From Undaria pinnatifida (Eukaryota > Sar > Phaeophyceae > Laminariales > Alariaceae): DNA of 64,000 nucleotides. Positions 18,934 through 46,200 of this stretch are shown here, piece by piece (positions within the stretch are counted from its first letter, which is position 1; each line of letters starts with the position of its first letter). The notes under the pieces are model-generated. The model saw only the letters and a list, made by a program, of their open reading frames with translations, had not been told where the DNA came from and made no database searches. The stretch covers positions 6,678,103-6,742,102 of the forward strand of contig JABAKD010000002.1 of the NCBI GenBank assembly GCA_012845835.1, read 5' to 3'. Position numbers and translations under genes: made by a program.

Positions 18934-21900
18934 TCATCCATCGGTAGCGGGCGCGATGGTGTCCTCGTATTTGTCCGCGGCATCGTCGATGAAGCTTGAG
19001 ACCGTCTGCCGATGCCACGCAGCAAACAACGCACACGGAAAAAAGCGGGAAAATGGGAGTGGCATATTAGGGGCAGGGGGAGGGGGGAGGGTTGGGGTCA
19101 AGGCAAGTATGTACTTACAGCACACACGTGTCAACAAAGCGGTAGCAGTCAACGGGGGCGGGCGGGGGGGATTAGGGAAAATACATGAAACGTCACAAGG
19201 AGTAAGGAATACCAATGTTCCCTCGGATTGGCGGGGGTAGGGTCAACACCTACAGAAGGACATGTGGCCATTACGGATAGGGAATACCACGTGCCGTCCC
19301 CGGTTCTCTCGGAACGCTTCGTACAGGCAGAAGTGCGCCTTTCGTGCTCCCCGGCCTGCAGCACAATTCTCACGTCCCAACAACCACCCTCGATGCAACA
19401 ACCACAGAAAACCAGTCTCATGCTTGCTTGGTGGGATTTGTACGGCACGGCCCCCGAGCACGCGTTTGATTTTTGGGGTCTGCATGCTTCGGTCCTTGCG
19501 CAACATCTCATGGCGGCAAAAATACTATAATATATAGATCGCATTACGGCAAGTACAGGATAGAGATGGCCTACATTGCATAACCGCAGATATACTAGAT
19601 GATTTAATGTAGATTATCTATTGTAGGTTGCACAACGGCGAAGACAGGACAGAGATAACATAGATCGCATACCGGCTAGTACATGATCCAGATGATCTGG
19701 ATCGTGCTCCATTTAAAAGGTTGAGGTTTGTCTCATCGGCGAACTACGGGTCTCACGTCATCGGCACACCTCGACAGAACCTCGTGAAGTAGTTCCACTT
19801 AGCGAAACAAGTAGACGTTTCAGATCGTATAAAGGCCAACATAGGATCTAGACTATCAACTACGAAATATCTATAGATCGTAAATTGTCGTGCGTCTCAC
19901 CTCATCGCAGTACGTGGACAGGCGCTTCGAGAAGCCGGTGATGTAGTTCCCCTTAGCGAAACAAGATGTGTTAGATCGCATAACCGCAACTATAGGGTCT
20001 AGACTACCTCGTATATTCTACAAGATCGATTATCTAGAACGCCATTTATCAAGTGCGTCTCACCTCATCGGCATACATAGACAGGCGCTTCGAGAAGCTG
20101 GTGAAGTAGTTACCCTTGGCGTCTGTGCCCGTCCACACGACGTACACAGTCAGCTGGCACAGCGCGCTAACTTTAGCGTCCGTCCCCTCCTATCGTCGAA
20201 TACGAACAAGCCAAGTCAAGGAAGAGCACGTAAAGAACGCAGCAGTCGCGCATCGCGTAACGTCGTGGGGGGGGGAGCGAGCGGAGGGGTAGAGTGAGGA
20301 TTGGGGTTCGCCATATGCATCCCCTACATAAAATGTAACTGTTGGCGTGTTGGGCCACCAATGCATGGTGATTCCGTGTTTTTTATTTTGATGTACGGAG
20401 CTATTACTTCCAGGACCGGATCTTCGGCAGTGCAACAAGGGATACAATAATAATAATAATATGTTTTAATACCAATATTTTTGCTCAATAATGAAAGGTA
20501 CAATATAATGCTTTGTAGCAATGATCGAGTAATATAATATATACGAAGTAGTTAGGGTTAGGGTTAGGGTTAGGGTTAGGGTTAGGGTTAGGGTTACCCT
20601 AACCCTAACCCTAACCACGTACAGTCAGCTGTGACAGCACGCTAACTTTAGAGTCCGTCCCCTTATATACAGAAAGAGAGAGTCCATCCCCTCACTTTTT
20701 AAAGTAAAACCAAGCGAAGCTATATATAGAGAGTCCGTCCCCTCACTTTTTGAAGTGAAACCAAGCGACGCTGAAGCAAGAATACATAAAGAGCACGGCC
20801 ATGACATATCACATACACTCGAAGGGGTGGAGACACGGGGGGGTGTCGCGAGGAGGGGGAGGGTGGAGGTTATAATGGTGGGAGAGAGGGCAACGTGAGG
20901 AGGGGGGGGGGGCAGTGAGGGGTGAGGGGCGCGGGGGCGTAGGGGCGAGGAGACAAAAGGGGGGGGTAACAAGCAGAACTCCCTTTTCTTGCTAAGCAGT
21001 GGCGGTCGTAAAACCGTCCTCAAGCGGAGCCGGGCGGGTGAACATTTCTCTCTACTACAAAGCTCTCGTCAAAATTGCCGAGAACGATTTCCAAACAGGT
21101 CTGCCCTCGCATCTAGGCCACAAACGTGAAAACAAAAATACTGCCGTTACCTCCACCACGTTTCTTTCACGCGCCCGAGTAGTCATACAAGTGAACGCGC
21201 ATTCATCGCCAGCCCCCACGAACGCATTCGCACACACGCAGGCACAAGCCAACAAAACGGAAAGACGCCTCCCCGCACCATACCTACCCCATTTCCCTCG
21301 CCGAACCCCCCTCCCGCGCGCGTAGCTCATTGGTGGGGGGGGGGGGGTCACTCTCCCTCTCCTTTTTACTCTCTTTCTATCTCTCTCCCCCCATATATCT
21401 CTGCATCTCCGTTCCCATCCCCTCCCCCCCCCCCCAAGTCTCTACGAAACCTCTCTCCATCTCACCTGGTTGCACTCGGAGTCTAGCCAAAAGCAGTCCT
21501 CGCCAGAGTCGGGTAGAAGCGTACCCCCGTTGTAGTCGTACGTGTTCTTCTCGCAATTGGCGGAGCCGCAGAAGTGGCACCCGTCGTCCCACGAGATACC
21601 GGTTACCTGGTCGCGGAAAGGACGGCAGGAAGTAGGCTTGTGTCAATTTTGCTCGTTTGTTTGTTTTTCTTCAGTGTTTTTTTGCGGGTGATGAGCATTC
21701 CAACATTAGACTATACATGGTATGATATTACAAGGTTCCCGTTCGGAGTTCGGTTGGCTTCATTTCCCTCCGGGGGGTACCGCAAGTGCAAAGGGAGGAA
21801 CATCGGCGAATCTATGAGCGATACCTGGTACCAGGTATGGCAACACATGGAGTCGCCGACCCTTACTTGACCATTTTGGAGCCCCCAAATCCCTCCCCAT

Positions 21901-34989: not shown

Positions 34990-35900
34990 CGCTAAGAGCA
35001 GAATTAGGAATGCGCCCACATAAAACAAATAGAGACGTGAGAAGGTTGAATTGGCAATATAAAGTGAAGAACATGCCAGAAAAGAGGTTGCCAGCCATGG
35101 TTGATAGGGCTGTATGGGAGAAAATAACGAAAGGGCGAGCTGGAATATGATGGGATAGCGTATTCGAGAAAACACGAAAGGATATACCGGGAGACCGAGC
35201 AGAGGTGCTGTCTACAGAGAAGTTTGGCGGGTACAAAACAGAAGTAAAAGGAAGAACAGAAGAAGAGGAAAGCCAAGCGCTAAGGAATAAGGTGAAAGAG
35301 AAGAACCACTTAGAGATACACGGGGAGTTGAGGGAAGATATTGGAATGAAAACGTATTTGCACGATCCAATGGACTACGCGAAAAAGCTGAAACTGCGAT
35401 TTCGTGTAGGGGACCTGGACCTACCAGAAAGGACGAAAGAGATATACCAGTAGTCGGGAGGAGGAGGACATGGCTGTAAATACGTGCCCCTGTGGCACGA
35501 CAATAGGAAGTAGGAATCACACAGTAGGAGAATGTGAAATACACAAGGAGGAACGGGATGCGTTGGAGAAGGAGATGACTAAATTAGACGTATGTGACGT
35601 GGCAGAGGTTGGTAGACTAGAGAGTAGCGATAAAACGATCGTTATCCTAGGAGATAGATGGTGGCCGCAGAAGGCGAAACAGGACGGGGATAGGATAAGC
35701 AAACAGTTTCTATGTAGTATATGGAAGAGGCGTAATGAGCGCCCGAATGTTGGAGATTTCTCTATGATGAGTAAGAACGGTGCTCGGTCTCGAAAGGGAC
35801 GCATGGTCAACGGTCAAATGACTAAGGCAAGTAACAAATGAGTACGCCCCCGCCCCCCTCCCCCCCCCCCCCCCCCCCCCCCCCCTCCCCTCCCCCCCTC
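34990..35900 (+). mobile_element. LINE 3'-end fragment, copy 2
   Basis: Encodes the C-terminal region of a non-LTR retrotransposon ORF2 in pieces: an upstream part around 35005-35200 with one in-frame stop, 35205-35453 (motifs EKFGGYKTEV, KLKLRFRVGDLDLPERTK), then after a frameshift 35470-35841 with the knuckle C-P-C-G-x(8)-H-T-V-G-E-C and the conserved ILGDRWWPQKAKQDGDR and KRRNERPNVG. The C-P-C-G...H...C arrangement after the RT domain is typical of LINE ORF2 C-termini; RT itself is absent (5' truncation). The frame ends ...MTKASNK, then TGA, then GTACGCCCCCGCCCCC and a long C-rich tail. Inactive. Confidence 0.75.
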
Positions 35901-43329: not shown

Positions 43330-46200
43330 CACCTGAATATAAACGTGGAAAAAACGTTGCCGGTGCAACACGACGATATCTATCTCATCAATAACCACGG
43401 AGTCGGAGAGTCCATCCGTGACATGCGCAATACACGTGGGGCTGTCAGCTGGGCAAGGAACGGGCGGGACTGCGCCGTTCTTCGCCCCCCGCCGCCCAGC
43501 CCTGTACCGCTGAGAAGACTGATGGCACGAATTACATACGAATGTACTTCGCTTTCTGTTAGTTTTGAACGAGTGTATCCCATCAATAACACACGGACTT
43601 GGATAGGCCATATTGGAAACGTACTCGCGGGGTTCTCAGCTGGGTGACGCTGCGCCCCGCCCCAACTTCCCGCCCGCCCCCCTACCAACCCCACCGTTAT
43701 TTTCCTCGCGAAGTGCAGGACGACCTTGGAACATTTTTGCGTCTCTGCTGGCCGCAAAAGAGTCAACATCCGTCATACGACCCGTCCTACCGAGTGTTCC
43801 GCACAAAGACATGCTGCAACCGAACTTTCATCGTTTCTTGCGACAACATGGTATCTTGCGACAAGCCCGTCGCACAACTAACTTCCCCGGGTTTGTACCC
43901 CATTCTTCTCCAGCTACGCAACGATCCTGGCATAACTCGTATTGGGTGTGAGCGTGCAGAACTTCCAGGCTGTAACTCCTCTCGTGACTACTCAGAAACG
44001 TTCGGTATTTAAGTTTCTGAGTAGTCGCATGTAGAGTTGCACGCAGGAACCCCTCACGCCCACACCTCATACGAATTATATCAGGCACGGTGTTCAGCAG
44101 GAGAAGAACGGGGTACAAACCCAGATAAGTTTGTTAGGCGACGAGCGTGTCGCACCAAACCACGAAGTTTGGGCGCATCGTATATTTTACGGCATGCTCG
44201 GCAGCATGGACCGCGCGGCGGATGTTGGCTTCTTCTCCACCATGACAAGAGGGGGTTTGTCAAGGTCGCGTCCCGCCCTGCGCCCCGCCCAGCTGACAGT
44301 CCCGCGCGCGCCTGCCAAGGATGGCCTTTCCGACTACATTTGTGATTGATGAGATAGAGTCACACGAAGTCAGCAGGAAGTCCACGCCCCGCCCCGCGCC
44401 CCGTTCCCGGCCGTCCCGCCCTTATACCATAATTCTTGCACTTGCGAAACGCAGGATGTTCTTGACCGTTTTAATTTTGTCATGGCGAAGAGAATATCAC
44501 ACCTGCCGAGCATTCGGCACAAAGAAATGTTGAACTCATACCTCCATCGTTTCTTGCGACATGATGCCCTGTTCTTCTCAAGCTACAACGCTCCACACGT
44601 TCAACGTTCCTGGAATATTTCGCGTGAGGTGTGGGCATGTAGGAAATGCCTGCTAGTAAATCTACATGCCATTGCTCAGAGACGTTCGGTATTAAAGCAT
44701 CTCCAAAGTCTCTGAGTAGTCGCATGCAGACTTACACTTAGGAAGGCTCCCACGTCCACATATCGTACGAGTTGTGCCAGGCACGGTGTTAGACTGGAGA
44801 AAAGCGCGGTACCAACCCGGGAAAGTTTGCCAGGCGACAAATGCAAGTTGATAAAATATTTGTGTCAAATACACGGCAGGATGGATCGCGCGGCGGATGT
44901 TGGCTTCTCAGCCTCCATGACAGGACGGAATTTGTCAAGGTCGCGCCCCGCCCCGCGCTCCGTCTAGCCGACAACTCCGCGTGTGCCTGCCAAGGATGGC
45001 CTCTCCGACTCCAAGGACTATAGATGAGATAAATTCACACGAAGCCAACAGGAAGCGGACGCCCCGCCCTGCGTCATGCTCACGGCCGTTGCCCGCATAT
45101 ACCAACATTCTTGTCCTTACGAAGTGCAGGACAGCCTTGACTAAGTTGCTCTTGTATTGGCAGCGAAGTTATCGGCATCCGCCGCCTGGTCCATCCTGCC
45201 GAGTATTCGGCGCAAAGAAACGCCACGTTCAAATTCGTCGTTGAATGCGACAAGCTCGTCGCCCAGCAAACCTCCCCGGGTTTGTACTCCGTTCTTCCCC
45301 ACTAATACAACATTCCCGGCATAGTTCGTATGAGGTGTGGGCGTGGCAGGCTTCCTGGATGCATCTCGGCGTGTGATTAACCAGAGAAGTTCGGTATTAA
45401 AGTCTCCCGGAAGCATCTGAGTAATCGCAAGTCGAGTTGCAACCAGGAATCTTGCCACGCCCACACCTCATACGAACTATACCAGGAACGTTGTACAGCT
45501 GGGGAAGCACGGGGTGCAAACCTGGAGAAGGTTGCTGGGAGACAAGCTTGTCGCACGAAACGACGAAGTACGAGTTGAGCATTTATTTGTGCCGACTACT
45601 CGGTAGCATGGATCGTACGGCGGACATCAGCTGCTTCCTTGCCATGGCAAAATATCAATTTTAAAGTCGTTCAGCAATTCGTGAGGACAATGTTGCATTG
45701 AGAGTGGGGTGCAGGGAGCTGGGGTCGAGGCCACGCTCCGTCCAGATGAAAACCCCGTGTGTGCCTGCCAAAAATGGCCTCTCCGACTTCGTAGACCGTT
45801 GATGGGGTATGCTCACCCGAAGCCAACAGGAAGTGGACGCCATAATTGCAAAAGGCACAGGCCGGGGCGAGGCAGCAGGGTGCGGCGCGGTGCGGTGCGG
45901 TGCGGTGCGGTGCGGTGCGGTGCGGTGCGGTGCGGTGCGGTGCGGTGCGGTGCGGTGCGGTGCGGTGCGGTGCGGGGCGGGGCGGTGCGGGGGGGAGCGA
46001 AGCGGGGCGGGGCGCGGCGGGGCGAGGCGGGGCGGGGCGAGGCGGGGCGGGGCGGGGCGAGGCGGGGCGGGGCGGGGCGGGGCGGAGGGGACGGGGTGCA
46101 GCTCCGCCCCGCGCCCTGCCCCGCTGACAACCCCGCGTGTTCGGGCCAGGGATGACCTCTCCGATTCAGTGGATAATTGATGAGGTATATTGGCATGAAG
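43330..46200. repeat. Tandem array of ~700-bp hairpin units
   Basis: Three consecutive inverted repeats with centres near 44006, 44696 and 45400, so the period is ~690-705 bp. At the first centre GACTACTCAGAAAC (43986-43999) pairs perfectly with GTTTCTGAGTAGTC (44013-44026). Imperfect arms extend at least 200 bp each way and include TCGCACAACTAACTTCCCCG / GGAGAAGAACGGGGTACAAA-type partners. Linkers carry a GATTGATGAGATA...CACACGAAG box and CCCCGCCC runs. A reversed linker copy lies at 43345-43560. Frames in the arms are repeat-derived. Confidence 0.75.
45880..46095 (+). repeat. (GTGCG)n passing into (GGCGGGGCGA)n microsatellite
   Basis: About 17 units of GTGCG from ~45890 to 45975, changing through GGGGCGGTGC to GGCGGGGCGA-type units up to 46085. 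It sits in the linker of the third hairpin unit, where the other linkers have CCCCGCCC, so it probably grew from that seed. Long Cys/Gly/Ala (+) and His/Pro (-) frames across it are artefacts. Confidence 0.9.

Follow-up and report, generated by a model that had tools for sequence, protein, structure and literature searches.

In an intron of Undaria pinnatifida, a 249-bp patch of ectopic genomic sequence, a head-to-head telomeric array and a copy of a local exon boundary lie side by side and form a compound repair scar. The scar is located in a stretch of 64,000 nucleotides of contig C26 (the window, GC content of 50.3%), in whose numbering positions are given here unless a contig is named, and it is best explained as a real, short interstitial telomeric sequence (ITS). 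The original prediction described the array and the copy to its right. It missed the third piece of the scar, the patch from contig C55 that lies directly left of the array.

The telomeric array and its host intron

The array begins with seven TTAGGG units on the plus strand (20552-20593), all of them perfect. A TTA (20594-20596, no strand assigned) joins this run, in the context GGGTTACCC, to three CCCTAA units (20597-20614), which together with a trailing CC (to 20616) form the second half of the array and correspond to (TTAGGG)3 on the minus strand. The meeting of seven TTAGGG with three CCCTAA units across TTA is, as predicted, exact at 20552-20614. With 10 perfect hexamer units at a site ~6.7 Mb from the start of a 29-Mb contig, the array has what defines short ITSs, a small number of near-exact hexamers at an internal position. 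When at most one mismatch is allowed, TTAGGGTTAGGG occurs 9 times in the window versus 0.31 expected from shuffled sequences, and eight of the nine occurrences fall within the array. As a single strand, the array could form a 21-bp hairpin (−23.9 kcal/mol, z of −5.8 for 200 shuffles). In a genome pattern search, the GGGTTACCC/GGGTAACCC join recurs at C21:1043949 and C29:14186348.

The whole scar is contained in a predicted intron on the minus strand (20154..21465), read from splice signals and open frames. On this strand, exon 4 ends at 21466 with ..SECNQ, followed by the GTGAG donor, and exon 5 (20064..20153, 30 amino acids) starts at 20153 with CTGACTGTG, after the CAG acceptor, in phase 0/0. 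Exon 5, the exon whose acceptor region is copied, is recognized by its splice signals, its open frame and a single genomic match. A 74-amino-acid query built from both exon pieces matches only these two places in the genome, on the same strand and in the right order, in agreement with the earlier claim that in-phase exons 4 and 5 flank the array. The homologue search of the gene, made in Pfam, gave no match up to E = 1, and the predicted gene model rests on splice signals and open frames.

After exon 5, at 19750-20121, exon-5-like stretches are observed (74% identity between 19776-19958 and 19930-20121 in an alignment of 195 columns), one of which keeps the frame and the donor (SKRLSTYCDEV). 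These stretches are either a tandem exon duplication or decayed exon copies. Elsewhere in the window, ~43 GCGGG pentamers form an array at 45882-46096 in which several frames are open, and an open frame at 35410-35841 has a CPCG..HTVGEC..H pattern, which we take to resemble the C-terminal end of a non-LTR retrotransposon reverse transcriptase, as a putative assignment.

The two facing runs are also the result expected of a chromosome-arm fusion, which leaves head-to-head telomeric arrays, as at human 2q13. The subtelomeric flanks or former ends of a fusion ITS are not seen here. One intron lies on both sides, the pieces of the gene are ordered around the array 6.7 Mb inside the 29-Mb contig, the two flanks searched (20001-20550 and 20616-21010) have no satellite match, and the array measures merely 63 nt. 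In accordance with the original prediction, a relic of an arm fusion is extremely improbable.

The ectopic patch and the local copy

The patch occupies 20304..20552 on the plus strand, and its donor is G000:C55:2602376-2602619 on the minus strand. In a genome search with 20001-20550 as the query, for which four matches were listed including the query itself and a local 69-base match, the last 250 bases match C55:2602376-2602619 at 95% and C55:2739443-2739672 at 80%. Relative to the donor, the patch has 5 substitutions in 243 aligned bases and one 6-nt indel (AATAAT-type) in an AAT microsatellite. The two C55 loci are inverted with respect to each other and colinear on both sides of the segment, with 84-86% identity along most of 9.9 kb. 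Because the segment is native in the colinear second locus, C55 is the source and the window is the recipient. The last some 16-18 nt of the patch are common to the first C55 locus only, and the rest is present in both (L033/L036 for the homologous locus); from a point some 16 nt before the patch meets the array, the second locus lacks ~275 nt. Donor and window are identical up to CGAAGTAGT, after which the donor continues with ATTTAT and the window with TAGGG. At this left end of the array, GT (2 nt) is by eye in register with the hexamer.

The C55 loci (G000:C55:2598000-2607900, L035, and 2734500-2744400, L036) constitute an inverted segmental duplication, ~84% identical and 137 kb apart, that covers most of the 9.9 kb fetched per locus.

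By eye, no poly(A) is present at either patch junction. The patch has a distant template, no target-site duplication and no poly(A), the features of a class 2 templated insertion. A mobile element with telomeric ends was rejected as a candidate: the patch is found at at least two other places, both in the colinear C55 duplication. A decayed exon copy extending across both sides of the array, to which ACTACTTC in exon 5 and beside the array had pointed, was dropped because C55 accounts for the left flank.

Another possible source of the patch is reverse-transcribed telomerase RNA, as at the TERC-ITS loci of rodents. The patch does directly adjoin the repeats, and a CTAACCCTA 9-mer lies ~60 nt from the patch homologue in the second C55 locus (L036:4877). 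In the donor locus, however, the motif is missing near the patch; the sole 9-mer (six hexamer permutations, both strands) is 4 kb off, in a stretch common to L036. Neither the window nor the donor locus has an Rfam match at the gathering threshold, L036 has no telomerase RNA match up to E = 1, and the two C55 loci are homologous over most of 9.9 kb. Judged by Rfam and the motif, no telomerase-RNA-derived flank is identified, and this origin carries only a slight probability.

On the right side, positions 20614..20663 (minus strand) are a diverged copy of 20137..20188 (minus strand), which comprises the start of exon 5, its acceptor and the adjoining intron. Of 50 bases aligned between the two, 5 are mismatched, and the alignment has one gap of 2 nt. 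In the core, 20621-20663 versus 20146-20188, identity is 39/43 (blastn self-comparison of the window, E = 4.7e-11), and the claim that the sequence beside the array repeats the exon-5 acceptor region holds. A crowding of the differences at the array junction was considered and rejected, as they are scattered along the copy (20616, 20632, 20633, 20639 and 20652). At the right end of the array, a register of GG is obtained, by eye, only by placing a 5-nt gap in the exon sequence. With its start 475 bp away from the template and with differences in sequence, the copy is not counted as a target-site duplication. The right flank (20616-21010) has no copy elsewhere in the genome except three 75-84% matches in its G-rich bases 237-335. 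The word GTCCRTCCCCT occurs at 20653, 20682 and 20733 (20653..20743, no strand assigned), and also at 20178, and may represent an 11-nt annealing site.

Substitutions are more frequent in the copy than in the patch (4/43 versus 5/243, Fisher p = 0.03), so that one single event is not proven and an older, separate origin of the copy is possible. In a layered history of this kind, the acceptor copy would be an older local duplication, to the edge of which patch and array were added later. Besides the difference in substitutions, the tandem copies around exon 5 (19750-20121, 74% over 195 columns) are in line with this history, as is the combination of an array that is perfect in 63 nt with copy differences that are spread as by age. 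On the other side, the copy ends at most 6 nt from the array, which would be due to chance if it were a separate older duplication, and 43 bp is a short yardstick for divergence. Perfection over 63 bases has a probability of 0.27 at 2.1% divergence and is compatible with the age of the patch. A layered history is considered somewhat unlikely. With regard to the layout first proposed, the copy does lie beside the array on the right. On the left, the 249-bp patch separates the array from the original flank, and the array is thus not placed directly on both original break ends.

Junction polarity and empty sites across the genome

The genome searched comprises 511,146,479 bases in 68 contigs. A perfect TTAGGG 18-mer is not rare in it (6380 matches, 3393 + 2987, with overlapping matches counted apart), and the first 30 of the 6380 loci correspond to 21 arrays, many of which are located in degenerate TTAGGG-like minisatellites. 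Polarity was counted for junctions of two runs. Abutting head-to-head runs (GGGTTAGGGN{0,8}CCCTAACCC) are found at 15 places in 511 Mb, the window included, versus 1 place, close to a contig end, for abutting tail-to-tail runs (CCCTAACCCN{0,8}GGGTTAGGG; 15:1, two-sided binomial p = 0.0005). Both patterns read backwards gave 0 matches genome-wide. Without places less than 60 kb from a contig end, the ratio is 13:0 (p = 0.00024). When the C13 tandem satellite and the palindromic repeat centred at C26:25462352 are also removed, it is 11:0 (p = 0.001), a count that leaves out these two, the two head-to-head places near contig ends (C19:15987475 and C29) and the one tail-to-tail place. The genome-wide check for further (TTAGGG)n-(CCCTAA)n junctions that had been proposed at the outset yields 14 more abutting places, and in most of their flanks the runs reach, by eye, unrelated sequence within a few bases. 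The polarity holds only for directly abutting runs: with longer arms and a spacer of up to 30 nt, 9 head-to-head and 5 tail-to-tail places are observed, which is not a significant difference (p = 0.42), and in all 5 of the latter other sequence of 17-28 nt separates the two runs.

At G000:C13:1382545-1383031 (L040, L042), the unit of the tandem satellite itself has a head-to-head telomeric inverted repeat. At G000:C26:25462263-25462463 (L071), a head-to-head join centres a palindromic repeat with arms ATTGGTTG...GCGTTTCATT, which is perhaps a foldback element. The first 400 of 3000 bases fetched from C26 contain, by eye, no terminal telomere, and TTAGGG as the Undaria telomere is not seen there; (TTAGGG)n is given as the telomere repeat of Ectocarpus in PMC11541908.

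If telomerase extends both 3' ends of a break and the ends are then joined, TTAGGG...CCCTAA results on the plus strand, and if two independent fragments are captured, tail-to-tail junctions should be as frequent as head-to-head ones. These expectations bear on the explanation that pre-existing telomeric DNA, from shed ends or a fused telomere pair, was captured as filler with no telomerase at the break. Filler capture or copying does happen, as the ectopic patch adjoining the array indicates, and fused telomeres, if captured as one piece, would likewise face head to head. Yet two independent fragments would produce both polarities equally, which disagrees with the 15:1 ratio of abutting runs, and a single fused piece could be the source only if fused telomeres had been at hand in many independent events. 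Capture of filler is accordingly rated as unlikely. Of the origin first suggested, break repair with telomerase product and a copied flank remains the best reading, and the 15:1 ratio speaks against randomly oriented capture of telomeric DNA.

Empty copies were sought at five loci: the window, C28, C52, C33:15578252 and C19:15987475. The locus at C28:13050095 belongs to a repeat family, and the array is absent from 9/9 examined copies (44 matches listed, 10 cut out, one of which is the locus itself). Here, the ~13 nt of the copies are replaced by ~34 nt, consisting of (TTAGGG)2..(CCCTAA)2 with partial units, and the left break end shows no register by eye. The locus at C52:14209668 belongs to another repeat family, and the array is absent from all five fetched copies (5 of the 70 matches listed, with flank halves counted apart). 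In this case, 37 nt of telomeric DNA replace 156-188 nt of the copies. At the left break, one of the five copies has CTGGGTTTT, with 5 nt in register (GGGTT), and the other four have CTGTGTTTC, with 3 nt (by eye). At C19:15987475, 56 kb from the contig end, the left flank is a broken-off satellite with a ~204-bp period and the right flank is a dispersed repeat; all three of the copies fetched lack the array but have TAACTATTAG, in which 4 nt are in register (by eye). No spanning copy of C33:15578252, C19:15987475 or the window locus is present among the matches listed. Register at break ends would also fit microhomology-mediated joining of captured fragments.

The ~204-bp-period satellite (L068:1-88, L079, L087) has copies near the ends of contigs C1, C31 and C57 and is likely subtelomeric. 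In L087, the satellite copy lies 13 kb away from the C56 end and passes directly into TTAGGG repeats.

Assembly across inverted telomeric repeats is difficult, and the array could in principle stem from a chimeric contig or a misjoin at 20596. No N is found in the 64 kb of the window; as gathered from PMC7058681, the contigs appear to be PacBio contigs with N at scaffold joins. The patch is 2% off C55, whereas a chimera would carry C55 sequence unchanged. Both the divergence from the donor and the lack of N argue against an assembly join. In addition, abutting head-to-head junctions exist at 14 more places, two of them with clean empty sites. The probability of an artefact is very slight.

Proposed origin and relation to known systems

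The scar is proposed to derive, probably, from a break that was end-joined after receiving the C55 patch, the ~40-nt local copy and telomerase repeats on both ends. A double-strand break in the intron would have been repaired by error-prone end joining. At the left end, the 249-bp patch would have been copied or captured from C55, and at the right end, annealing via GTCCGTCCCCT to the sister word beside exon 5 would have led to the copying of ~40 nt. Telomerase may then have extended both free 3' ends, by seven TTAGGG units on the left and three on the right (which the plus strand shows as CCCTAA), after which the new telomeric ends would have been joined head to head. The polarity, together with the literature, suggests that the repeats are a telomerase product. 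The sequence of steps, the annealing and the occurrence of all steps in one event are what we infer, and the single-event claim is the weakest part of the proposed account.

More generally, it is possible, and we suggest it tentatively, that telomerase in the kelp lineage routinely extends both break ends before they are rejoined, and that head-to-head inserts, sometimes with ectopic patches, are a standing class of scar. If this is true, healing would be followed by end joining in a single pathway, and the two would not be alternatives. Orientation would serve as a fingerprint, with two-end telomerase action giving head-to-head junctions only and random capture giving both. The 15:1 ratio and the repeat-embedded empty sites would make a mechanism from three vertebrate loci countable in any genome, and would extend the two-sided telomerase reading to a lineage only distantly related to animals. 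In addition, the scar in the intron illustrates how acceptor-like sequence and foreign DNA can enter a gene, maybe by one repair event.

Short ITSs of vertebrates are mostly of one orientation. Nergadze et al. 2007 (PMC2246262) describe short ITSs that formed at breaks where flanking sequence was deleted, added or duplicated, with a register of 1 to 8 nt, and a horse and human study (PMC7215372) describes complex horse loci, one of which has two head-to-head stretches with inverted duplications of 38 and 53 bp. The kelp scar resembles these in its few perfect units, which would have appeared at once in unrelated sequence, and in its flank changes, and perhaps in the 2 nt in register at the left end. 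It differs from them in combining, in a brown alga, a 249-bp patch from another contig, a direct local copy and a head-to-head array. For TERC-ITSs, PMC8537989 gives head-to-head repeats at 3/41 loci and proposes a second telomerase at the other side of the break. The mouse lemur and Xenopus examples share with the kelp scar two facing runs at a non-fusion site and differ in that the kelp patch is, as far as tested, not telomerase RNA. Class 2 templated sequence insertions have, according to PMC5110952, a distant genomic template. The patch is similar in its distant source and in having no poly(A) and no target-site duplication, whereas the kelp scar also has telomeric repeats and a flank copy. 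Human 2q13, presented as a fusion ITS in PMC6410037, has the same (TTAGGG)n(CCCTAA)n orientation as the kelp array, which in contrast is short, perfect and intronic, has like junctions at other sites and does not lie at an arm join. A literature search for ITSs in brown algae gave a single paper, which judged by its title concerns an oomycete. Since two-sided telomerase action has already been proposed for rare vertebrate loci (PMC8537989), the kind of scar is already known; added here are its compound build, its occurrence in a brown alga and a count of the polarity.
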